Below the pieces are notes generated by a model. The model saw only the letters and a program-made list of their open reading frames with translations. It did not search any database and was not told where the DNA came from. A stretch of 45,569 nucleotides of DNA from positions 1-45,569 of the IMG/VR virus record IMGVR_UViG_3300020455_000025. One strand, 5' to 3'. The stretch is from a virus. Below are positions 7,621 through 42,169 of the stretch, one piece after another. The position numbers were made by a program, and so were the translations under genes. Each line of letters opens with the position of its first letter. The stretch's first letter is position 1.

Positions 7621-7693
7621 GAATTGCCACTCCCATGCTAAAGATGAAATAACAAAAGAAAATTGCTCCAGCGAGTATAAGTAAGTTGCTCAT
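7613..7693 (-). CDS. 26-residue single-span membrane peptide
   Basis: A tiny gene that is almost entirely one hydrophobic helix (SNLLILAGAIFFCYFIF near the start, ending MGVAIHG). Its ATG overlaps the stop of the preceding gene in an ATGA arrangement, GAGGG lies 7 bases upstream, and its end overlaps the next start by 8 bases, so it sits exactly in an otherwise unexplained gap in a chain of coupled genes. It would insert in the inner membrane; small phage membrane peptides can modulate host membrane enzymes or lysis. Function unknown. Confidence 0.5.
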   Translation of the reverse strand: MSNLLILAGAIFFCYFIFSMGVAIHG

Positions 7694-8130
7694 TTTGATC
7701 CCTCATAACTTTCCGCTAATCGTTTCTTCAATTCTTCTTTGGCTATCGCAACATATTCATCAAAAACAGATGATGCAGTTTCATCAATTTCCTCTAAGAA
7801 ATTCTGGAATTCGTCTACTACCATATTTTGGAGCTTATGCTCGGCTTGTTCTTCCAGCTCCTCCTCAGTCGGCTTACCGAATTTTTTTTCGATCAGCTCA
7901 AAATTTGGAGTCCAAACTGAATGGTAATCAGCATCAATTTCGTCAAGCTCTGTTACATCTCCCCATTGCCATGTGTTCTCCTTTTCCTCAAATTCTCCGT
8001 TTGATCCCTCTTCAATGAAATATTCAATTATTTGCTGGTCGGTCATCCATTTTGGGAATTTATAAACTGCTTGAAACATTTGCTCAGACGTTGCATCTAT
8101 AGAAACAATTTTTAAATCTTCATCATTCAT
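7690..8130 (-). CDS. Acidic hypothetical protein
   Basis: An unrecognised soluble protein of 146 residues with very high Glu and Asp content, notably KPTEEELEEQAEH and FLEEIDETASSVFDEY, likely helical and perhaps coiled-coil in the second half. The ATG at 8130 follows AAAAAGGTAAAGATT on the minus strand, a leader shared almost word for word with other genes of this operon. It is the first gene downstream of hammerhead element A, whose predicted cut would give this message a new 5' end about 64 bases before the start. The stop overlaps the start of the small membrane peptide gene. Confidence 0.6.
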   Translation of the reverse strand: MNDEDLKIVSIDATSEQMFQAVYKFPKWMTDQQIIEYFIEEGSNGEFEEKENTWQWGDVTELDEIDADYHSVWTPNFELIEKKFGKPTEEELEEQAEHKLQNMVVDEFQNFLEEIDETASSVFDEYVAIAKEELKKRLAESYEGSK

Positions 8131-8147: not shown

Positions 8148-8238
8148 TGCAATGGTGTCTGCCATCATCAGTTGTAGATCGCCACGATCCACAAGACCAG
8201 CCAGATCCGAGAGATCTCGCTGGTTTCGGCTTTATGCA
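8148..8238 (-). ncRNA. Type II hammerhead ribozyme, copy A
   Basis: The minus-strand transcript has all parts of a hammerhead. Reading 5' to 3': stem II strand GCC, core GAAA, stem III (CCAGC with GCUGG, extended by AGAUC with GAUCU), cleavage triplet GUC, stem I (UUGUGGAUC, loop GUGGC, GAUCUACAA), core CUGAUGA, one extra U, and stem II strand GGC. An outer helix UGCAU/AUUGCA extends stem II. Stems I and III are closed and stem II open, so it is type II. The predicted cut lies between 8195 and 8194. It fills the 101-base gap between two genes and includes the stop codon of the upstream gene. The extra U after the core is the one departure from consensus. Confidence 0.85.
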
Positions 8239-8651
8239 GTTTCATCAAGTATTAGATTGTCTAAGGGTATAAATTCGTGGAATGTAGATTTTACAATTCC
8301 AGAAATACTGGTTTTAAATTCATTCAGTACACACCAGCGATCATTCTTAAAGAGGTAGCAATATTCGATAAAAGCATGATCCTTAAACTCTTCTAAATAT
8401 TCCTTACTGCTGGGAAATTTCTTAAACTTGGTGTTTTCATTTCTCCAAGTATTATAAAATCGACTGTCCTGTGTGGTTTGTCCTAGAAACGAGCAATCAT
8501 TGTGCTGGATTAGGTCAATCGCTAAATACTCAGTTTTGTAGTAGTTGTTTAATAACCTCCCATTGTGGGCTAAATATCCGTCACTATGACAATAAATTGA
8601 GATCACAGAATTATCTTGCAACTGAACTCCTATTTCAGATCTTGTACTCAT
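8232..8651 (-). CDS. Conserved phage protein of the MSTRS type
   Basis: A 139-residue protein whose N-terminal end, MSTRSEIGVQLQDNSVISIY followed by CHSDGYLAHNGRLL, matches a family of small proteins widespread in phages and some bacteria that begin with MSTRS and carry a YCHxDGY segment. Their function is not known. The conserved Cys-His-Asp cluster could bind metal or form an active site, which is inference. The gene lies between the two hammerhead elements: element B would cut just before it and element A just after it, so ribozyme action would release it as a monocistronic message. Its leader AAAAGGTAAAATT resembles those of its neighbours. Confidence 0.65.
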   Translation of the reverse strand: MSTRSEIGVQLQDNSVISIYCHSDGYLAHNGRLLNNYYKTEYLAIDLIQHNDCSFLGQTTQDSRFYNTWRNENTKFKKFPSSKEYLEEFKDHAFIEYCYLFKNDRWCVLNEFKTSISGIVKSTFHEFIPLDNLILDETA

Positions 8652-8672
8652 AATTTTACCTTTTCATTTTGA

Positions 8673-8760
8673 GCAAATGGGTCTGCCATCATCAGTTATC
8701 TATCCCCACGATAGATAAGACCAGCAACCCTCTAAAGGGCGCTGGTTTCGGCTTATTTGC
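8673..8760 (-). ncRNA. Type II hammerhead ribozyme, copy B
   Basis: Same architecture as copy A with different helices. The core GAAA and CUGAUGA and the triplet GUC are identical. Stem I is UUAUCUAUC/GAUAGAUAA (nine perfect pairs, loop GUGGG). Stem III is CCAGC/GCUGG plus CCCU/AGGG with loop UUAG. Stem II is GCC/GGC, extended by GCAAAU/AUUUGC. The same extra U follows CUGAUGA. The loop GUGGG can pair with CCCAU in the stem II internal loop, matching the known need for a loop-loop contact. The predicted cut is between 8719 and 8718. The 5' strand of the outer helix contains the stop codon of the upstream gene. Confidence 0.88.
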
Positions 8761-9025
8761 GGTCTGAATAACCTCTTGAAACAATCATCCATGCAGAGAT
8801 TAATTGATTAGGGGAATATTGATCTAGAATTGCCCTACAATTTAGATCTAGGAGATAGCAGTTTCTTTCTTCTAAATTTTGTCGCACCATAGTATCGACA
8901 ATATTAAGAGCTTCTTTCCAGTCCATGCTCGGATCAACCAGCGAGGTGTTCGCTGGTCGATCATTGTTGATCTTATAATCATACATAGAATTCACCAGAA
9001 TTTTCTGAAAGATATGGTTTTTCAT
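8753..9025 (-). CDS. Hypothetical protein
   Basis: An unrecognised protein of 90 residues. It begins inside the previous gene (47-base overlap) and ends at the hammerhead element B, whose first stem uses its last codons and stop. The sequence is mixed and helical (DWKEALNIVDTMVRQNLEERN), with no signal or membrane segment. An internal Met (VNSMYDYKINND) would give a start nearer the end of the overlap, so the first 13 residues are uncertain. Confidence 0.5.
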   Translation of the reverse strand: MKNHIFQKILVNSMYDYKINNDRPANTSLVDPSMDWKEALNIVDTMVRQNLEERNCYLLDLNCRAILDQYSPNQLISAWMIVSRGYSDRK

Positions 9026-9413
9026 TAATAGAAATAATCTTTCTTTCCAGCATAAGCTGGAGAGTGTTTCTATCGCCTATCCAAGAGATATTTCTTTTAA
9101 TTCCCTCAATACTCCACAAACAAGATCTACTGTCTCCACTATTTTCATCCAGACCAATAACCAGAGATTTTCCAGCAATAGGAGATCCAGTCGCTTTATT
9201 AAAAAAGAAATATTGTTCCTCTTTGAATAATCCCTCTCCATCACAATAAATATCATGAGTGTGGATATCATCCCCAAGTCTTAAAGGGATAAAGGGTGCA
9301 GTTTCAAAATTACTGCATCCTAATTCTGCATATATAGAATTTAGATCGTGAGCTTTAACAAAGACCTCTTTCAGTCTTTTAGCTTTTGGATCAATTAATA
9401 TTGTTCTAATCAT
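8979..9413 (-). CDS. DUF3846-like protein
   Basis: A 144-residue protein that resembles the DUF3846 type of small phage and bacterial proteins: it opens MIRTILIDPKAKRLKEV, continues with a NSIYAELGC helix, then CDGEGLFKEEQYFFF and the SPIAGKSLVIGLDE strand that closes the fold. Function is unknown for the family. The C-terminal 50 residues (GIKRNISWIGDRNTLQLMLERK) go beyond the usual domain. A leader AAAGAAAGGTAAAAA directly precedes the ATG at 9413, like other genes of this operon. Confidence 0.6.
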   Translation of the reverse strand: MIRTILIDPKAKRLKEVFVKAHDLNSIYAELGCSNFETAPFIPLRLGDDIHTHDIYCDGEGLFKEEQYFFFNKATGSPIAGKSLVIGLDENSGDSRSCLWSIEGIKRNISWIGDRNTLQLMLERKIISINEKPYLSENSGEFYV

Positions 9414-9774: not shown

Positions 9775-9986
9775 TAGTAGTTATTCCTAACTCTGAGATC
9801 TTCAGCAATCATTACGATTACAAATCCCAAGAAAAGAGATCCAAAAGCACAAGTCATAAGACCAAAAGCATTAAAGAGATTTGCTGGATCTAATGAAAGA
9901 AAAAGACTGGAGCAAAAGCAAACCATTGATAAAGCACCAAAAGTTAAACCTATCCCAGCAGTTGTATGAAATATAATTTTATTCAT
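9774..9986 (-). CDS. Small two-span membrane protein
   Basis: A 70-residue protein with two hydrophobic segments (about residues 8-30 and 37-60: TAGIGLTFGALSMVCFC and LMTCAFGSLFLGFVIVMIA) joined by a short loop, and a basic C-terminal end (EDLRVRNNY). It is the first gene of the leftward operon, behind a sigma-70-like promoter and a CAAAGGTAAAAATA leader. Two-span topology is compatible with an inner-membrane host-modifying or superinfection-exclusion protein, but it lies far from the lysis cassette and I would not call it a holin. Confidence 0.6.
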   Translation of the reverse strand: MNKIIFHTTAGIGLTFGALSMVCFCSSLFLSLDPANLFNAFGLMTCAFGSLFLGFVIVMIAEDLRVRNNY

Positions 9987-10031: not shown

Positions 10032-10059
10032 AGTATACTGCCAAACTGTCCGTATTCAA
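10032..10059 (-). promoter_or_regulatory. Sigma-70-like promoter for the leftward operon
   Basis: On the minus strand TTGAAT (10059-10054) and TATACT (10037-10032) are separated by 16 bases, close to the sigma-70 consensus. They lie about 45-70 bases upstream of the first leftward gene, in the divergent gap opposite the small terminase gene. It is the only good candidate for transcribing the 3.7-kb leftward operon that contains the hammerheads. Confidence 0.5.
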
Positions 10060-10838: not shown

Positions 10839-13283
10839 ATGGCTCAACCGAGAACTTACACTAGGCAGTACAACTTCAATGATTTCCAAACAACAAGTCC
10901 AGCGAATCCTCTTCCTGGGAATCAAGTTGACGGAGAACTGAACAAGGTAAAACTGACCTTAGACGATCTGAATACCAATATAGCGAAAATCCAGCAAGAT
11001 GATGGCAAGATAAAGAACCAAGCAGTTCACAAGGATAGCTTTGATGCTGGTGCTTTAGCTTTGATGAATACTGGTTCATATACTGTAAAAGGAGATTGGG
11101 TTACATCAACCTCGTATTCCGTTGGTGATTTAGTTGATTATAATGGTGCGACTTACGTTGCAACGTCAGCACATACCTCATCTTCTGCCTTTCAGACCGA
11201 CTTAACTGCAAATAAATGGATTTTGATAGCCAATGCTGGAATAGCGAGTACGGCTTCAGCAGTAAATAAGTTTGAGGGAACTGGATCGCAGACTGCGTTC
11301 ACTCTTTCATACACTTATACTTCAAATACGGATGTTTTGGTTTTCGTAAACGGAGCTTTAAAGAATCCAGGAGATGATTACTCAATATCGGGTACAACAT
11401 TAACCTTTGTTACTGCTCCTAGTACACCAGCCGTATCGGGCAATGAGAATGTTATTATTTGGGGTGCATCTGTTGTTGCTCAAGCCGCCAAAGAAGCGGC
11501 AGAAACGGCTAAGACTAATGCTCAAGGGTTTGCAAATGAAGCTGATAATTGGGCTAGAAAAACGAATGGTCTTGTTGAATCCACCGATTATTCTTCAAAA
11601 GCTTATGCGATTGGGGGTACTGGAGTTGATACGGCATCTGGATCGGCAAAGGATTGGGCAACCAAGACTTCTGGAACAGTAGGGAACACAAGCGAATATT
11701 CAGCAAAATATTATGCAACTAATGCGAATGTTGGGACAGTAGCGACCAATATTGCGAATGTTAATATTGTTGCTGGGTTAAATAGTGAGGTAACTGCCGT
11801 TTCTGGTAAGGCAACAGAAATTGGTCTTTTAGGTCAATCCACACCTATTGCAAATATGGCATTGTTGGGAACGTCTACTGTAGTTGGTCACATGGCAAGC
11901 TTGAATGGGACTAATGTTATCACTCACATGGCGAATTTAAATGGAAGTGGTGTTATTGCGAATATTGGTACTGTAGCTGGACAAACAACCCAGCTTGGAT
12001 TACTCGGTACAAGTGATGCAGTTGCCGATATGAATTTATTAGCAACATCAGCAAATATTACATCCATGTCGAACCTCGGCACGACTGCGAATGTAACGGC
12101 AATGGGTAATCTCGGTACAACGACTAATGTTACGAATATGGCTAACTTAAATGCTAGTGGTGTTATTACGAACATGGCGAACCTAAATGCGAGTGGAGTT
12201 ATTGCGAATATTGGGACTACGGCTGGAATAAGTGGTGAAATTGCTACTGTAGCTGGGATAAGTTCGGCAATTTCGAATGTTTCTGGGATTTCTTCGGCAA
12301 TTTCGACAGTAAATACGAATATTGCGAAAGTCCAGGCAACGGCAAATGATTTATTAGAAGCGACCTCGGAAATAGACACAGTAGCAAACTCGATTGCTAA
12401 TGTGGATGCGGTTGGAGGAGCTATTTCAAATGTTAATACAGTTGCGACCAACATTACTGGAGTCAACTCTTTTGCTGATAGATATAGAGTGCAAGCTGGA
12501 GTTCCAAGCAGTAGCAATGACGTAGGTGATCTCGTATTTGATACGTCAGCCAATACCTTGAAAGTTTTTGGGAGTAGTGGGTTTCAAAATGCTGGTTCGT
12601 CTGTAAACGGAACGTCTGCTCGATTTACTTATAATATATCTGGTACTCCTACGAGTGTTACCGGAAGTGATGCTAATGGTAATACTCTTGCTTATGATGC
12701 TGGATTTATTGACGTATATTTAAATGGTGTAAAGCAAGTAAATGCCACAGACGTAACAGTTACAAGTGGTGACACAGTTACTTTTGCTTCTGCTCTTGCG
12801 AATGGTGATGTAGTAGACATAGTTGGGTTTGGTACATTTAATGTTGCTTCAATCAATGCCTCTAATGTTAATGCTGGCACACTACCTAACGCAAGATTAA
12901 GTTCTGTACCTAATTCAGCATTGGCAAACTCTGCAATTACGATAAACGGATCGGCAATTTCTCTTGGAGGTAGTGTTACTGTTGAGACAGATTTCACATG
13001 GGAGTCCAAGACCTCTGCTTTTAATGCCGCCATTTCAAAAGGGTATTTTGTTGATACGACTGGAGGAGCAGTTACGGCTACTTTACCAGCGAGTCCTACG
13101 GCTGGAGATACGATTAGATTTATAGATCTGAGTGCTACTTTTGATAGCAATAATCTTACAGTTGCGAGGAATGGAAAGAAGATCCAGGGGGATGCAAGTG
13201 ACATGACTGTAGCAACAGAGAGGGCTGGTTTTGCCTTGGTTTTTTCTGGTGACACTCAAGGCTGGTTGATGATGGAGAAATAA
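10839..13283 (+). CDS. Tail fibre protein
   Basis: An 814-residue fibre. The N-terminal 50 residues (AQPRTYTRQYNFNDFQTTSP) resemble the part that anchors T7-type fibres to the virion. Residues about 85-130 (WVTSTSYSVGDLVDYNGATY) look like a small chitin/carbohydrate-binding beta module. Residues about 285-560 consist of imperfect repeats built on IANVN, MANLNxSGVI and TVAGISS, which should form a trimeric beta shaft. The tail end (LPASPTAGDTIRFIDLSATF) looks like the C-terminal beta domain of many phage fibres. The protein should bind a host surface glycan. The ribosome site is GAGGAGAG. Fine-scale DNA repeats of GCGAATATTG and similar words make this gene prone to recombination. Confidence 0.85.
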   Translation: MAQPRTYTRQYNFNDFQTTSPANPLPGNQVDGELNKVKLTLDDLNTNIAKIQQDDGKIKNQAVHKDSFDAGALALMNTGSYTVKGDWVTSTSYSVGDLVDYNGATYVATSAHTSSSAFQTDLTANKWILIANAGIASTASAVNKFEGTGSQTAFTLSYTYTSNTDVLVFVNGALKNPGDDYSISGTTLTFVTAPSTPAVSGNENVIIWGASVVAQAAKEAAETAKTNAQGFANEADNWARKTNGLVESTDYSSKAYAIGGTGVDTASGSAKDWATKTSGTVGNTSEYSAKYYATNANVGTVATNIANVNIVAGLNSEVTAVSGKATEIGLLGQSTPIANMALLGTSTVVGHMASLNGTNVITHMANLNGSGVIANIGTVAGQTTQLGLLGTSDAVADMNLLATSANITSMSNLGTTANVTAMGNLGTTTNVTNMANLNASGVITNMANLNASGVIANIGTTAGISGEIATVAGISSAISNVSGISSAISTVNTNIAKVQATANDLLEATSEIDTVANSIANVDAVGGAISNVNTVATNITGVNSFADRYRVQAGVPSSSNDVGDLVFDTSANTLKVFGSSGFQNAGSSVNGTSARFTYNISGTPTSVTGSDANGNTLAYDAGFIDVYLNGVKQVNATDVTVTSGDTVTFASALANGDVVDIVGFGTFNVASINASNVNAGTLPNARLSSVPNSALANSAITINGSAISLGGSVTVETDFTWESKTSAFNAAISKGYFVDTTGGAVTATLPASPTAGDTIRFIDLSATFDSNNLTVARNGKKIQGDASDMTVATERAGFALVFSGDTQGWLMMEK

Positions 13284-33772: not shown

Positions 33773-36700
33773 ATGGACGGAAACTTTGGTCTATTTGATG
33801 ATACAGAAGATGAAGAACCTAAAAAGAAAGAAACTGTTTCTACTAATCCCTTAGACTTTGGTTTGTTTTCAACTGATGAACCAGTACAAGACACTAATCA
33901 AAAGAATAATGCCATAGACAGTTCTTTTGGGTTATTTGATGGTGCTGAACCAGTTGTAGATCCTAATGTTGAAGTTACAGAACCTAATGTCGAGGGTACA
34001 GATACCAATGCAGAGGTTACAGATCCAGTATTAGACCCAACAATAAACGCAACTTCTGAGGTCAAAAATGAGGTGGTTCAAGATGATCTGTCGGGGGATC
34101 TAGGCAGTCCTCCAAATGCTGGTGGAGAAATACCCTCCCTTTCTTCACAACTGGATTCCTCGGCAGAGTCCAATAGTCTTGTCGAGAGATTAAATAAGGA
34201 TAAAGGGGAAGTCCGAAACACACTAAAGCCTTATACCTCTACTTTTGATGCTGGTGTTCAATCCACTACTTTCCTGGAGAATGAGCTTGCAAATATTAAG
34301 CAAGACCAAGAAAAGCGTGATGAAAAGGCAAGAATAACTAAGGAATCCAAAGAAGCTGAAGAAAGACTAAAGGCAAATTTCAAGACAATCCTCGAAAGCT
34401 CAGATCCAAAAGCATTAGAAATGAGGGAAAAACTATTTACCAAAAAGAACCCTAGTTGGACAGAAGTTACGAAAGGAAAAGATGGAAATTGGTATTACAC
34501 CCCTAAAAAATGGTCAATACATTGGGGAGTACAAAATCCAGTAAAGATCTCAGAATTAGAAGCGGCAATGCTAATTCACGAAGCAAATACCTTTAAAGCA
34601 TCAAACTTTGCATTAAACAGAGGTTGGGGAAATCTAAAGCAAGCTACTAATGTCATGGGTTATTCATTAGGATTTAAAGATCCAGACGAATTTTTTAAGC
34701 GAATGTCTGAGTTAAACAGAGTTTATCCTCTAGCTCCAAAGAAAATACGAGATGGATTAAAGGAAATACAAGAAGCAGAGGGTTGGGCAGAAGCATTTAA
34801 AGCCATTGTACGAAATCCTCAAGCTACAGTATCGGTGGTTGGTGAATCTCTTGTTACGTCATCACCAACTATTGCGGCTTTTATTGCTGGTACTCTTGTC
34901 ACAAGAAATCAATGGGGAGGTGCGGCATTAGCATCTCCAGTTGCTTTTGCAACAGAATATGCCCTAACTATTAAAGGCGAGATAGATGCTCTTGACATAA
35001 ATTTAGATAATGACGAGGACATTAAAGCCTTAATGCAGAACGAAGAATTTTGGAGAAAAGCTAGGGCAAAAGGTATTGCCAGAGGTATTCCTATAGCCAT
35101 ATTTGATGCTTTATCAATGGGATTAGCTGGAAAGCTTGTAGCTCCAGCATTAAGAAAAGGCTGGAAGAAAGTAGCCGTAGCATCTGGTGTAGAAGCATTA
35201 ATTCAAGGTGGATTTGGTTCTTTGGGTGAAGCTGGTGCTGAAGTTGGTGAAATGGGGATAGGTCAAAGAGATTGGTGGGATTTTGGAGAGGGAGATATTC
35301 TTTTAGAGGGTGGTGCTGAAATTATCCCAGGAATGGGTGAAATGGCAGTAAATCTATCGCAAACGAACCAAAAAGTAAGAGAAGCACAAGCAGAAAAAGA
35401 ATATGAACTGGAAATACAAAAGCTGGCTAGTCAATTATCCAATCCAGAGATCCTTGCAGAAGTTGATCCGAGTAAGGTCTTAATAGCCGAAAGATTAGAA
35501 AAGGTTGCTCAAGAAGAAAAAAATGCTTCACAACAAATTAACGAAAATATCGAAAAAAAGAAAAAAGCTCAAGAAGCAACCCCTTTAAAGATTGATAGTC
35601 CTCAAGCCATTCCACCAGATAAAGAGATAGGATTTAGTTTAAATACTCTTACTGGAAACAAAGAAGAGGAGCAAACACAGACTCCAGGAGGAGAGAAAAG
35701 CTATAAAACAGAGTTTGTATTAGTCGATATAAGGCAATTAAAACAAGCTAAAGGCGAACTACAACCTAGAAATAGAGCTACTAAAGAGTCCAAGATATTA
35801 GCAATTCAGAGAGCCAATGAGCAGACCTTTAATGCCAAGAGATTAATGGATAGTCCTACAACTGGGGACGGATCGCCAATCATTGCCAAAGACGGAACAA
35901 TTATTTCTGGAAACGGCAGAGTTTTGACTATGGCAGAGGTATATGACTCCCAAGATAATGCTTTAACTAACTATCAAACTGAGCTGGAAACTTTCCTTAC
36001 AAACAAAATAGCAAAAGACCTAAAAGTTGCTCCTACAGATCCCAAGGTAAAGGAAGATGTAGCCAAGCTTTTGAACAACTATGAACAACCCATTCTGGTT
36101 AGACGATTAACAGATCCTAATATGACTGTAGAAAATCTATCTGAAATGGCAGATCTCTCGAACAGATCCGAACAAGCCGTTATGTCTGTTACTGAGAGTG
36201 CAAGCAGAGATGCTAAAGCAATGGGAGAGGATATTACCAGACTTTATACTGGAGGAGAGATAACAAGTGTAGAGAATAGAGCTTTTGTTCAAGCTTTTGT
36301 AAATAGAGTTGTTACGAAAGCAGAACAAGGTGAGTTTACAAAGAACGGACAACTAACCAATCAAGCAGTAAACCGAATGAAGAGTGCTATTTTAGCAAGT
36401 GCTTTTAGTGATGTTGATGTTTTAACAACTATGCTGGAGAGTCCAGATAACAATATTAAGGCATTAACTAACGCATTAGTATCTGTTGCACCGAAATTCA
36501 CTCAACTAAAATCAAAGATAGATCAAGGAAATATCAAGCCAGAATTTGATATAACAACTGATATTACTAATACGGCTCAAGTTATATCTGAACTTAGAAA
36601 CCAAGGAATAAAGCCAAGCGAATACTTTGCCCAGCAAGATGCTTTTACTGACCAAGATCCCATGATCGAAGCTCTTATTAAGGCATTTTACAATGATGAA

Positions 36701-39700
36701 TTGACCAGAGCAAATTCTCAGCAATTTATGGAAACTGTGTTAAACTATTATATTGAAGAAACAGAAAACGTAGGGCAACAGAACCAGCTATTTGCAGATG
36801 AAGTATCACCCAAGAAGGTTGTCGAGGGTGCTAGAAGAAGAACAGTAAAGGAGAAAAAAGGTGAACCAGAAGAACAAGGCAAGCTCTTTGGAGAAGAGAA
36901 AGGCAATGAGCCAAGCACTCAAGAGGGCGGCAAACAAGTTTCAGAACCAGTCAGCAAGGGAGGGAGCAATGATACTGGATCGGTCAATAAAGGGGGTACA
37001 AAAACCCAACAAAAAGACCTAAAGGGCGAATTTCCACAACCAAATGAATATAATGTATACAACTCTGAAGATGTAAAGCCAGAAAATATAATCGAAACAA
37101 AAATACCTGGATCTGGTTATGGATATGCTAGGCTTGAAGCATTAGAGATTGCTCCAGGTAAATGGGTTGGAGCTTATGGCATACAGGTTGGTTCTACTGA
37201 GGGATCGCATGGTGGATTACAAAGCACACCAATCTTTAATTCAAGAAATGAAGCAATAAAAGATCAAATAAATAAAAATCAAGACCACTTACAAGAAAAA
37301 ATAACTGATACTGCTACTCTTAAAAAACAAAGAATAGCATTAAAGAAATTCTTTGATAAAACGTTAAACGAAATTAAAGGGCAAGCTACTGAGTATAACC
37401 AATGGCAAAAACTTTCAAATGAAGAAACTGTTTCAGAAAAAGGTGTAGTTACTGGATTAGTTACTGAACCAGAAGTAAATGATTTTATCCATGCAGAATT
37501 AAAAAAACTTCTTCCAGAGGGATTTGCTTCAGCTTTTTTTATTGAACTATTAGAGCTTGGAACAAGAACAACAGATTTTAAGGAGGGGTTTTATGATAAA
37601 TTTGATTCCTCTGGTTTCACTCAATCTAGTTTACAAATACTAGAAAGAACTCCTTTTAAAAATGATGGCAAAAATACTGTCCAGCGAACAAGAAGAAGAA
37701 AAGCAAAATTATTTATACCACCAGAAAGAAATGACAAAATTGCTCCAGTTGACGTAAAATTTGATAAAAATCCTCGAAAAGATGATCTTATTAAAAGAAT
37801 ACAAAGCTTCTTAGATGATCCAAAAACTTTTGATGAGAAAACGAAAAAAGATGTGGAATATAAGGTAGATGTAAGAAAAGGATTGCATGAGATAAATAAA
37901 AAACTAGATGCAATGGGGTTTGTCGAAGCTATTGACGAAGCCCAAAGAACTAAGTTAATAAATGAAGAGAACAAGCAAAAAGGGATAGATTTTGATGCCG
38001 ACACCACTACCAGGAAAATCGGAAAAGTTGATACCGAGATGGATAAGGGAGGGCTTGAGTCCACCCAAGAACCAAAAGAGAAAAAAGAAAGAAAAGAGGG
38101 AAGCACCAGAGGAACAAAAAAAGGAAGAATAACTGCCAAGGAGATGCAAACTCTAAGGCAATCTGTTTTCCATCAAGCCTTTACTGATGCTGGTAAAGAC
38201 CCAGCAGTAATGGTTAATGAAGAACCAAAAAGACAGTTTAAGGTTTTATCTGATTTAGTTAAAGAGAAGTTTGGATTTAAGTACGTTGCGAAAGGCGAGG
38301 TATCTTATACTGCCGTTCAGTCTTTATTAGATGCTTACAGAAACCTACAATTCATGTCCCATGTTCTCGGACTTCCGAATGAGAAGATGAGCTTAGACGG
38401 AGAAATTGGACTAGCATTACCCTCTAAAGCAACCAGATATAATGCCGCATATATTTCAGCTAACATGGGAGTAGAGGGTGTAAAAGCTAAAATTCAAGAT
38501 GCTGGTATACAAGAAATACCAGTCATTGTTATGCCAGAAAGAAGCAATAGTTTTGCCCATGAATGGGGTCATGCTTTTGATTATCACTTACTAAAGAGAT
38601 ACGGAACAGACTGGTCAAAAGGAATTACCGGAAGAATAAGAACAAATTTAGAGGGCAATGAAAAGCCTTGGCTAGACTCAGCACCTAAGAGTGTTCAAGA
38701 AACAATGGCTGATTTAATCAATGCCATGTTTTTTGATAAAGCTGAATTTGCTGCAAAAGTTATGGAATTAGAACAAAAAATAATTCAGACAAAGAAGTGG
38801 GAAACAAAGACTGGGAAATCAACACAGAAACTAGCAGACCTTGAGCAACAACTAAAGAGGGTGCTTGAGGGAAGTACCAGAAGTAAAATTGGAAAGAGCC
38901 AATATAGAAAAGATGCTGAGAATTTTGCTTCAGCATTTAATTCAGATCCTAATTACTGGACACGACCAACTGAGATGTTTGCCAGAGTATTTGAAGCTTA
39001 TGTTGCCAATAAGGTTGAGAATATAGAGGGAACAACAGAGTTTATTAGTAAATCTGATCCAGCTTACAAGATGACAATAGAGGAGGTCGAGGGAGCTGAT
39101 GCTCGATTAGCCTTAACCTATCCGAATGACCAAGACAGAAGAAATATGTTTCTGGCTATGGATCGGTTAATGGAAGCAATTAGAGCCGATCATTGGACTG
39201 GTGTTCAAGGAGCTAATAGACCAGAAGATAAGAATATGGTTGATGCTAGACTTGATTTCTATGGTCAGCTAAATGAGGGAGCAAGTAAGAGCAAATTAAA
39301 GAACATTATATCTGACGAAAAATTAGCTTGGCGAATGAACAAAGCCGAAAAGGAACGTAGAAGCGATAGACCAAGGGAATATAACGAAGGTATTTTGACG
39401 AATACATGGCACAAAACAGAAGATTATGTATTTAAGAATATCCTTTATTCAAAGAGAGGTGTTCTATTTGCCATATCTCGGAGAAACAGAAATAACCCCG
39501 AAATTCATAAGATTGTCGAAGATATTATTTCAAGAGTAGCAACAGATCCAGGAGGAACAAGAGTAACCTTTAAAAATGGTGTTTATGAGGAAGCCGTTAG
39601 AACAAATACTCGAAGATTTGCTACTGAGCTAAAAAACATTTTAAGGAGAAACAAGCTTAATCTCCTAAGTAAACAACAAATGAAAGATCTTAGGCTGGTA

Positions 39701-42169
39701 TTAACTGGTAATGCAGAGTCCGTTCAAAACATTCCTCAAAATATTATTGATGGTGCGGCAGAAATTAGAATTAAGATCCTCAACCCAGTTTATGATTATG
39801 CTCGACAAAATAACCTCCCACTAACCTATCTGGAAGATGGAAGCTATATGCCGAGGGTGTTGGATATGGCTCTTTTTGAATATAAGCAAAAAGAATTTCT
39901 ATTTGGTGATGGTACTAGAGAAAATCCCTCCATTAAAAAGGGAGCATACGGACTCTATCACGAAGTTATTTATAAGAATGAAGTCGGACAACTGGATATT
40001 GGTAGCCGACAACAACAAATGGAAATGTATAGAATAATGGCTGATAACAGACCAGTTAGCCGAGAACGAGTAAGAATGGGTGGTCAGATAAACGGCAAAA
40101 TGATGAATGATGCTGGGAAGTTTGCAGAGGGTAGTGTAACTGCACAAGACGTTCAAGGCGATATAAGAAGCTTTGCTAACTTAGTTCCAACAATTTATTC
40201 AAAAGAATTAGCTTTAAAAAAAGCTCAAGAAAATCCAAAAGATAACGCAAAGCAAATTGAAAAATTAGAAAAAGAAATAGCTGAATTGGATCAGCAACTA
40301 GAAGAGATCCATGAGGGTATTTATACAATGTTGCAACCAGCATTTTCTTGGGTAGCTAGTCAAGATTGGGTTAGTCGAATAAGAGAGCAACAAGGCAATG
40401 ATATTGAAGCCCACTCCTCAACGAATAAATTTATGAAACAAAGAAAGCTCCCTAAAGAAGCCGATACGTTTATGATTGATTTCTATACTGATCCTATAGA
40501 AGCTTTATCAACCTATATTCCCTCGGTAGTTCGTAAGGTCGAGCAAGAGAATAGGTTTGGATCTCGTTTAATTCCGAAAGGTCAGCCAAAGAAAAATCAA
40601 GAGGGTAAAAATATAGATTACCTGGAGCATCAGTTAAATAAAGCTCTGGAACTTGGGTTAAATCCAAATGATAAAATAATGATAAAGGATAATATTGATG
40701 TAATATTAGGTCGTTCCACTCCGATTAGAAACCGAAAATTCAAGCAAACATCTGACTTCATATACACAATGGGTACAATGTCGTTGCTGGGAAGAGCCGT
40801 AATGTCATCTGTTGCTGAACCTTTAACGATAGGTATTAAGACTGGAAGTTCTAAGGATGCTTTAAAGAATTTGGCTTTCTTACTAGATGAGGGATTATCT
40901 GGTCTTACCAGCAAGGAAAGAACACAATATTTTAGGCAATTAGCAAACATTCTTGGAGTAGTAGACGATCCAGAAGTTGGGGAAATGGTTTCTAATCGTC
41001 TAGGAGGAACACTTCAAGACAGTCCTACAATGACTAAATGGTTAAGCCGATACTTTGTTAATACGAAATTACAAGGTTTAACTAATGCTCAAAGACGTAG
41101 TTCCATGAGAGTTTTCCTGCAATATTTTGTTGAATTATCAAAAGAATATAAAGATACAAATACGTCTGATAAGAAAATGAAACAGATTAGGAATGTCTTT
41201 CAAGATCTAGGAATTACTGGACAAGATCTCGACCAGTTCACAAGTTTTATGCTGGAGTCCAGAGAGCAAGACCCAAATCAAGTAAGAGCTGGTTTTAAAG
41301 CACCAGCATTAGAAGATGTAATAGGTAAGTCTGGAGAGCTAAGTGATATGGGTAAATTATTATCCATAGCGATTAATAGAGCCGTTAGTGAAACAATCCA
41401 AGATCCTATGATCGTGGATCGCCCAAAGTATGCAGAACACCCATTAGGTCGATTTGTTTATGGTATTACGTCTTTCACAAGAGCCTATACAAGAAACGTA
41501 CTCATAGCATCAGTCAATAGAGTTAATAGAGAGTATAAAACCAATGGTGCAGTTTCAGCAACAACAATGGCATCATTACATATCATGCCACAATTTGCCT
41601 TATTATACGCTGGGCATTTTGCCGTTTCTACTGCCAGAGAAGCTATGTTTAATGGTGATGAATGGGAAAGACAAAAAGAAAACGATAATTTATTTCCTTG
41701 GTTAATGGAAGTTGCTTGGACTAGAGCTGGATTCTTTGGTGCATTAGATCCGATTTATCAAGCCTTTCGATCTCTTAAATATGAAGCCGATATTAAAAAC
41801 CTATTTGCTGGAGCTCAAGCTGGGTTTCTTGCCAATGCAGTTGATAGAATAATAACGATCTTTGGTCAGAAGAATTCCCCAAATACATTAACGGCTGAAT
41901 ATAATGCCGTTAGAGGGTTTATGGACACTATTGGATCTGGGTTAATATCCTTGATAGCGGCAACTACTCCTGGAAATATTGCTGGGACAATAGCTGGTTC
42001 TCTAGCATTTTTTGGTACATCTTCTGGTTTTAAGAAATGGGTTTCCAGAAAATTTGTAGAAACAGTTTATGGAGATGAGCTTGAGATCGGTGGAAAGAAG
42101 TCGAGTAAGAAGAGTGGACAAAAACAAATTGGATCTGGTGGGTCAAAGCAACGTCAGATCGGAAATTAA
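33773..42169 (+). CDS. Giant polyvalent virion protein with zincin domain
   Basis: At 2798 residues this is the largest gene and has the style of ejected polyvalent proteins. FGLF motifs stand at 5-8, 29-32 and 52-55, about 23 residues apart. Residues about 350-490 hold hydrophobic stretches (PTIAAFIAGTLVT, GIPIAIFDALSMGLAG) that may span membrane. Residues about 645-720 resemble a ParB-like (DdrB-type) domain: FVLVDIRQLKQAKGELQPRN and IIAKDGTIISGNGRV. HEWGHAFD at 1596-1603 is a zinc metalloprotease motif. The region near 2555 (HPLGRFVYGITSFTRAYTRN) resembles the LPD38 domain at the end of such proteins. It probably replaces T7 gp16 and carries enzymes into the cell. Confidence 0.8.
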   Translation: MDGNFGLFDDTEDEEPKKKETVSTNPLDFGLFSTDEPVQDTNQKNNAIDSSFGLFDGAEPVVDPNVEVTEPNVEGTDTNAEVTDPVLDPTINATSEVKNEVVQDDLSGDLGSPPNAGGEIPSLSSQLDSSAESNSLVERLNKDKGEVRNTLKPYTSTFDAGVQSTTFLENELANIKQDQEKRDEKARITKESKEAEERLKANFKTILESSDPKALEMREKLFTKKNPSWTEVTKGKDGNWYYTPKKWSIHWGVQNPVKISELEAAMLIHEANTFKASNFALNRGWGNLKQATNVMGYSLGFKDPDEFFKRMSELNRVYPLAPKKIRDGLKEIQEAEGWAEAFKAIVRNPQATVSVVGESLVTSSPTIAAFIAGTLVTRNQWGGAALASPVAFATEYALTIKGEIDALDINLDNDEDIKALMQNEEFWRKARAKGIARGIPIAIFDALSMGLAGKLVAPALRKGWKKVAVASGVEALIQGGFGSLGEAGAEVGEMGIGQRDWWDFGEGDILLEGGAEIIPGMGEMAVNLSQTNQKVREAQAEKEYELEIQKLASQLSNPEILAEVDPSKVLIAERLEKVAQEEKNASQQINENIEKKKKAQEATPLKIDSPQAIPPDKEIGFSLNTLTGNKEEEQTQTPGGEKSYKTEFVLVDIRQLKQAKGELQPRNRATKESKILAIQRANEQTFNAKRLMDSPTTGDGSPIIAKDGTIISGNGRVLTMAEVYDSQDNALTNYQTELETFLTNKIAKDLKVAPTDPKVKEDVAKLLNNYEQPILVRRLTDPNMTVENLSEMADLSNRSEQAVMSVTESASRDAKAMGEDITRLYTGGEITSVENRAFVQAFVNRVVTKAEQGEFTKNGQLTNQAVNRMKSAILASAFSDVDVLTTMLESPDNNIKALTNALVSVAPKFTQLKSKIDQGNIKPEFDITTDITNTAQVISELRNQGIKPSEYFAQQDAFTDQDPMIEALIKAFYNDELTRANSQQFMETVLNYYIEETENVGQQNQLFADEVSPKKVVEGARRRTVKEKKGEPEEQGKLFGEEKGNEPSTQEGGKQVSEPVSKGGSNDTGSVNKGGTKTQQKDLKGEFPQPNEYNVYNSEDVKPENIIETKIPGSGYGYARLEALEIAPGKWVGAYGIQVGSTEGSHGGLQSTPIFNSRNEAIKDQINKNQDHLQEKITDTATLKKQRIALKKFFDKTLNEIKGQATEYNQWQKLSNEETVSEKGVVTGLVTEPEVNDFIHAELKKLLPEGFASAFFIELLELGTRTTDFKEGFYDKFDSSGFTQSSLQILERTPFKNDGKNTVQRTRRRKAKLFIPPERNDKIAPVDVKFDKNPRKDDLIKRIQSFLDDPKTFDEKTKKDVEYKVDVRKGLHEINKKLDAMGFVEAIDEAQRTKLINEENKQKGIDFDADTTTRKIGKVDTEMDKGGLESTQEPKEKKERKEGSTRGTKKGRITAKEMQTLRQSVFHQAFTDAGKDPAVMVNEEPKRQFKVLSDLVKEKFGFKYVAKGEVSYTAVQSLLDAYRNLQFMSHVLGLPNEKMSLDGEIGLALPSKATRYNAAYISANMGVEGVKAKIQDAGIQEIPVIVMPERSNSFAHEWGHAFDYHLLKRYGTDWSKGITGRIRTNLEGNEKPWLDSAPKSVQETMADLINAMFFDKAEFAAKVMELEQKIIQTKKWETKTGKSTQKLADLEQQLKRVLEGSTRSKIGKSQYRKDAENFASAFNSDPNYWTRPTEMFARVFEAYVANKVENIEGTTEFISKSDPAYKMTIEEVEGADARLALTYPNDQDRRNMFLAMDRLMEAIRADHWTGVQGANRPEDKNMVDARLDFYGQLNEGASKSKLKNIISDEKLAWRMNKAEKERRSDRPREYNEGILTNTWHKTEDYVFKNILYSKRGVLFAISRRNRNNPEIHKIVEDIISRVATDPGGTRVTFKNGVYEEAVRTNTRRFATELKNILRRNKLNLLSKQQMKDLRLVLTGNAESVQNIPQNIIDGAAEIRIKILNPVYDYARQNNLPLTYLEDGSYMPRVLDMALFEYKQKEFLFGDGTRENPSIKKGAYGLYHEVIYKNEVGQLDIGSRQQQMEMYRIMADNRPVSRERVRMGGQINGKMMNDAGKFAEGSVTAQDVQGDIRSFANLVPTIYSKELALKKAQENPKDNAKQIEKLEKEIAELDQQLEEIHEGIYTMLQPAFSWVASQDWVSRIREQQGNDIEAHSSTNKFMKQRKLPKEADTFMIDFYTDPIEALSTYIPSVVRKVEQENRFGSRLIPKGQPKKNQEGKNIDYLEHQLNKALELGLNPNDKIMIKDNIDVILGRSTPIRNRKFKQTSDFIYTMGTMSLLGRAVMSSVAEPLTIGIKTGSSKDALKNLAFLLDEGLSGLTSKERTQYFRQLANILGVVDDPEVGEMVSNRLGGTLQDSPTMTKWLSRYFVNTKLQGLTNAQRRSSMRVFLQYFVELSKEYKDTNTSDKKMKQIRNVFQDLGITGQDLDQFTSFMLESREQDPNQVRAGFKAPALEDVIGKSGELSDMGKLLSIAINRAVSETIQDPMIVDRPKYAEHPLGRFVYGITSFTRAYTRNVLIASVNRVNREYKTNGAVSATTMASLHIMPQFALLYAGHFAVSTAREAMFNGDEWERQKENDNLFPWLMEVAWTRAGFFGALDPIYQAFRSLKYEADIKNLFAGAQAGFLANAVDRIITIFGQKNSPNTLTAEYNAVRGFMDTIGSGLISLIAATTPGNIAGTIAGSLAFFGTSSGFKKWVSRKFVETVYGDELEIGGKKSSKKSGQKQIGSGGSKQRQIGN

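Follow-up and report, generated by a model that had tools for sequence, protein, structure and literature searches.

Gene arrangement around the hammerhead copies

The window, i.e. the whole 45,569-nt stretch of the IMG/VR virus record IMGVR_UViG_3300020455_000025, contained an operon on the minus strand that ran leftward from approximately position 9986 to a probable intrinsic terminator (6290–6245, minus strand; fold z −4.5, T9 tract). A promoter-like site upstream of the operon (10032–10059, minus strand) was a weak candidate, such sites being no commoner than in shuffles. No DNA resembling this accessory region was found among 50,697 phage records. Elsewhere in the window, the structural region ended in one open reading frame of 2798 aa (33773–42169).

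Two type II hammerhead elements were located on the minus strand between co-oriented genes of this operon. In the direction of reading, a DUF3846 gene (8979–9413) was followed by a 90-aa gene (8753–9025, minus strand), the hammerhead copy B (8673–8760, minus strand, including its outer helix), a 139-aa gene of phrog_1987, a family whose function is not known (8232–8651, minus strand), the hammerhead copy A together with the upstream stop codon TAA (8152–8234, minus strand; TAA at 8234–8232), and a 146-aa gene with no family match (7690–8130, minus strand). The DUF3846 gene overlapped the 90-aa gene at 8979–9025; on the related viral contig L022 this overlap was four bases (12003–12006). Each hammerhead copy began at the stop codon of the preceding gene. 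The ribosome-binding leader AAAAGG and the ATG of the gene downstream of copy B were located at 8649–8664 (minus strand), and a near-identical leader with AAAAGG followed copy A. The initial annotation had let copy B fill the whole gap between its neighbours; it filled most of it, and approximately 20 nt (8672–8652) were left for the leader.

Identification of two type II hammerheads

Copy B (8752–8678, minus strand) scored 41.6 bits against the Rfam type II model RF02276 with permissive filters, exceeding the gathering score of 37, and thus passed the database check proposed for it at the outset. Copy A (8230–8152) scored 49 bits with default filters. With the fast filters of Rfam, only copy A was reported in the window; since these filters miss copy B, a permissive search was needed for it. 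A second covariance model (R1), built from an alignment of 50 other viral type II hammerheads with the window copies left out, gave 51.2 bits (E = 4.9e-13) for copy B and 51.7 bits (E = 3.5e-13) for copy A. No third copy was detected in the window with R1, the next match scoring 15 bits. Copy A lay 522 nt downstream of copy B, and the two were 81% identical over 53 nt, with the same stem II strands (GCC/GGC) and the same cores.

A motif scan found two hammerheads on the minus strand of the window versus zero in 9.1 Mb of shuffled window sequence (200 shuffles). Together with the E-values of R1, this ruled out a chance motif. Hammerheads are simple motifs, and some consensus-like sequences are inactive (PMC3088659), so a chance or dead look-alike was weighed; given the empty shuffles, the two copies in one operon and the conservation at the orthologous position described below, we consider it highly improbable. 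On the combined evidence of RF02276, R1, covariation and orthologous position, copy B is identified as a type II hammerhead that lacks none of its parts and lies between two phage genes, as first claimed.

Secondary structure of copy B

The minus-strand letters of copy B (8760–8673) read GCAAAUAA-GCC-GAAACCAGC...GCUGGUC-UUAUCUAUC-GUGGG up to and including loop I and, after the loop, GAUAGAUAA-CUGAUGA-U-GGC-AGACCCAUUUGC. The order GAAA, stem III, GUC, stem I, CUGAUGA corresponds to a hammerhead in which stem II is open and each of stems I and III ends in a loop. The core (C3 U4 G5 A6 N7 G8 A9, G12 A13 A14, the pair A15.1–U16.1, and H17) was complete in both copies, with H17 being C. In copy B, the letters G12 A13 A14 A15.1 (GAAA) occupied 8746–8749 and CUGAUGA occupied 8689–8695. 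All three helices around the core were present, and the core-adjacent pairs were intact, as judged by the fold and by covariation in stems I and III.

Stem II was formed by GCC (8750–8752) and its partner GGC (8687–8685), and the TAA stop codon of the upstream gene (8753–8755) abutted it, inside the element as the initial annotation had placed it. An outer helix with the arms GCAAAU (8760–8755) and AUUUGC (8678–8673) was also present. The description of stem III as a closed two-part hairpin was borne out (8746–8720, including the closing pair A15.1–U16.1): it consisted of ACCAGC/GCUGGU and GCCC/GGGU, and was supported by the fold and by covariation in relatives. Stem I (8696–8718) carried the loop GUGGG, and its arms (8718–8710 and 8704–8696) formed nine pairs, all Watson–Crick, as had been noted. 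The predicted cut lies between C17 (8719), which directly follows the 3' arm of stem III, and U1.1 (8718); the corresponding site in copy A is predicted at 8195/8194.

Two features had been absent from the initial annotation. The first was a pseudoknot between UGGG of loop I (8708–8705) and the tail CCCA (8678–8681), with four pairs by sequence; the outer helix uses one of these bases in its last pair, so that the two compete. This interaction is found in the majority of the type II class and was weaker in copy A (UGG/CCA). The second was an extra U (8688) between A9 and G10.1. The parts therefore occurred in the required order, all on the minus strand, whereas the exact spacing that had been claimed did not hold. 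Hammerheads usually, though not obligatorily, have stem II directly after A9, and copy B departs from this by its one U.

The free-energy minimum of the copy B stretch consisted of exactly the annotated helices (−32 kcal/mol, z −2.8). When a longer precursor was folded by energy, the stem II strands preferred other pairings.

The extra nucleotide after A9

The plus-strand hammerhead of chrysanthemum chlorotic mottle viroid (CChMVd) likewise has one added nucleotide between A9 and G10.1. It is active with an extra A at that place, and replacing the A with U sped cleavage 3–4-fold (PMC3705267). The insertion in copy B is therefore compatible with activity and not disqualifying. The two differ in setting: the CChMVd hammerhead sits in a circular viroid RNA, and copy B in a predicted phage mRNA (PMC3705267).

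Among the matches listed, the extra U was the commonest form in elements with a GCC/GGC stem II (151 of 167), a figure biased by the second search pattern, which demanded the extra U. It was uncommon in elements with a GGC/GCC stem II, where 52 of the matches listed had no extra nucleotide and 7 had a U. The first search pattern, which did not demand the extra U, gave the same stem II-dependent trend.

Conservation in related phages

The viral contigs L022 and L119 had orthologues of both the DUF3846 gene and the 90-aa gene, and two more contigs, L154 and L155, came from a profile search. This profile of three sequences was necessary for the latter two; searches with the single proteins encoded at 8232–8651 and 8979–9413 found no relatives. 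On all four other viral contigs found with the 90-aa gene (L022, L119, L154 and L155), its stop codon was directly followed by a hammerhead, while the 90-aa proteins were just 57–59% identical across contigs. As L153 (the L119 contig), L154 and L155 were near-identical, they count as one case, and the conservation spans three lineages including that of the window. Conservation of this position across phages whose proteins are ~58% identical is new here.

All nine pairs of stem I were kept in copy A, copy B, L022 and L119, with two-sided changes at six positions. Related phages thus had the paired stems, the lack of which the initial annotation would have taken against the ribozyme. The outer helix measured 6 bp at the orthologous site of L022 and 9 bp at that of L119. 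As a part of the whole class it was rejected, because among AT-rich upstream flanks the pairing did not exceed that of shuffled sequence, the observed value being reached by 171 of 500 shuffles; a weak excess was restricted to the window-like group (6 of 500).

The gene after the 90-aa gene and its hammerhead differed among the window, L022 and L119 lineages. On L022, a phrog_1987 homologue was present without a hammerhead after it. These patterns are most simply explained if copy B is the older of the two at its junction, with a gain of copy A in the window lineage or its loss from L022. No hammerhead was found in the terminase relatives Rhizobium phage RHph_N65 and Microcystis phage Mae-Yong1326-1, nor at the phrog_1987 homologue loci examined in cyanophage S-SSM5 and Vibrio phage phi-Grn1. 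One and the same type II hammerhead, flanked by identical sequence, was present in two rumen metagenome-assembled genomes named Selenomonas and Mailhella (L158 and L159); a single phage contig may have been binned into both.

Position of viral type II hammerheads between genes

The viral loci were collected with pattern searches and included related sequences, so the counts given here do not represent independent events. Among the matches listed, 129 unique elements had sufficiently long flanks, and 89 of these (69%) combined a stop codon at stem II with a Shine–Dalgarno sequence and start codon downstream. The same test was passed by 1 of 129 on the antisense strand and by 2.8% of random positions, controls that preserve composition and not every feature of intergenic DNA. 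The order of stop codon, ribozyme, ribosome-binding site and start codon is thereby quantified with controls as a rule of the class, which is also new. Counted separately among the matches listed, the upstream stop was located at −12 to +8 of stem II in 97 of 129 elements, mostly at −5 to −2 (−3 in copy B), and the Shine–Dalgarno sequence and start within 80 nt downstream in 117 of 129; in the median, the cut lay 25 nt after the stop and 58 nt before the ATG.

Pairing was also maintained across the class. Watson–Crick pairs made up 98% of stem III versus 64% in shuffles, and 90% of stem I versus 33%, in 139 viral elements among the matches listed. In the same 139 elements, again among the matches listed, the pseudoknot run between loop I and the tail was 4.40 versus 3.35 in shuffles, and 0 of 300 shuffles reached 4.40. 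The downstream proteins among the matches listed fell into 84 clusters among 125, and the element is therefore no part of one gene family.

At least two elements were present in 45 of 131 loci among the matches listed, never on mixed strands, at a gene-sized median spacing of 668 nt. Copies were more alike within a contig than between contigs. This likeness, of which the 81% identity of copies A and B over 53 nt is one instance, and the different genes that follow the same upstream gene and hammerhead in the window, L022 and L119, would also be expected if the elements were mainly recombination boundaries for swapping gene cassettes, with self-cleavage a tolerated side effect. We regard this as improbable, since two-sided compensatory changes keep the fold despite sequence drift, something that DNA homology, if selected for, would not require, and since the copies of multi-copy loci all lie on one strand and fall between its stop and start codons.

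Visual inspection also picked out candidate type I hammerheads (CUGAUGAGGC..GAGCCGAAACCAGC..GCUGGUC) just upstream of genes on the viral contigs L007, L009, L013, L015, L017, L019 and L027. With fast filters, these (L007, L009 and the others) scored below every Rfam gathering score.

Proposed role in processing of the operon transcript

The structure, its covariation and its conserved position from stop codon to ribosome-binding site were observed directly. From them we propose, with a probability of roughly 0.7, that copies A and B are functional type II hammerheads that split a leftward polycistronic RNA and release a single-gene mRNA; cleavage, the single transcript and the effect on stability are predictions of this proposal. 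Copies A and B, which flank a single gene, would be transcribed within one polycistronic RNA. Copy B would fold with hairpins I and III closed and a short stem II, held by the pseudoknot of loop I and tail, and would cut its own backbone at 8719/8718, and copy A would do the same at 8195/8194.

The middle product would be a 524-nt monocistronic mRNA (8718–8195) for the 139-aa protein. Its ends would also suit circularisation, either by religation through a hybrid hammerhead made of the 3' half of copy B and the 5' half of copy A or by an RtcB-type ligase joining the 5'-OH to the cyclic phosphate. The identical stem II strands and cores of the two copies and the end chemistry fit such an RNA. 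It is nevertheless very improbable: the two halves would be held by three base pairs and the pseudoknot and no more, and a search by Perreault et al. for splicing or circularisation of tandem sets was negative (PMC3088659).

If the RNA is released as a single-gene mRNA, the upstream product would retain its stop codon, and its 3' end would be the stem III hairpin, bearing a 2',3'-cyclic phosphate. Because the stop abuts stem II, a ribosome terminating there would sit on the GCCGAAAC strand and prevent folding before its departure. Cleavage might then be gated by translation termination and its rate set by translation of the upstream gene, which we consider unlikely; the tight spacing of stop codon and stem II could be mere compactness of the phage genome.

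The downstream product would begin with a 5'-OH at the stem I hairpin, 67 nt ahead of the start codon, and would retain the ribosome-binding site. In Bacillus, the 5'-OH end of the glmS ribozyme cleavage product marks the RNA for decay. The hammerheads could likewise cut to a negative purpose, the 5'-OH marking the downstream message for decay and thereby lowering or timing the expression of small genes. Such a purpose is consistent with the same anatomy, with a 5'-OH at each element and with the many unrelated small genes that the elements precede, and is rather unlikely, because an intact ribosome-binding site and start directly follow the element (117 of 129 among the matches listed) and cleavage would leave a stable hairpin at the 5' end, usually protective in Gram-negative hosts, which may not be those of this phage. 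Under the proposed release of single-gene mRNAs, the hairpin at each new end suggests protection from exonucleases, and the likely use would be uncoupled stability and expression of adjacent small genes.

Comparison with known ribozymes

The initial annotation had presented a processing site in a phage accessory operon as a distinct role. This novelty was unsupported: in 2011, type II hammerheads flanking single prophage genes were proposed to process RNA to single-gene mRNAs (PMC3088659). Copy B shares with the type II set of RF02276 and Perreault et al. 2011 the open stem II, the closed stems I and III, the core and the pseudoknot, and with the prophage members also the location, the tandem copies flanking single genes and the proposed processing (PMC3088659). 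It differs in the extra U between A9 and G10.1, in the outer helix beyond stem II in the window lineage, and in lying in a phage accessory region without similar DNA in the phage records searched.

For phage-type hammerheads in tandem, cleavage is known both in vitro and in E. coli; 4 of 18 consensus-conforming hammerheads were inactive in the tests of 2011 (PMC3088659). The triple hammerhead at ardA of Agrobacterium tumefaciens resembles the window in placing several hammerheads around small phage genes; its cleavage was demonstrated in vitro and in E. coli, and that of the window copies is predicted (PMC3088659). The genes are also different, the flanked gene of the window belonging to phrog_1987 in an operon with a DUF3846 gene. 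HHphage of haloviruses HF1/HF2 is likewise located just upstream of a phage gene start, and a 5' end of the HF1/HF2 transcript was mapped to within 3 nt of the hammerhead cut; unlike the window copies, it has a variant core with insertions near C3 and an archaeal host (PMC3088659). Theta ribozymes of gut phages are also self-cleaving ribozymes inside phage transcripts, but have an HDV-like fold and adjoin tRNA genes (PMC10879173).

Hammerheads in Streptomyces phages of the R4 group

Streptomyces phage R4 (NC_019414, 40000–51071; L164) contained nine type II hammerheads above the Rfam cut-off, all on one strand. In the R4 group, a large number of consecutive gene junctions within one region had such elements, always on one strand. 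Other loci placed with this group were L145, L095 and L112 and, on the basis of their number of matches, L103, L098, L132, L133, L038, L049, L055, L072 and L101. In the literature searched, whose coverage was incomplete, nothing was found on hammerhead ribozymes together with Streptomyces phages. As R4 is a cultured phage with nine elements in one region, their role is directly testable there, and this side finding may matter more than copy B. Three of the nine R4 hammerheads lay inside the tiny annotated coding sequences gp60.1, gp67.1 and gp75.1, which are probably not genes.
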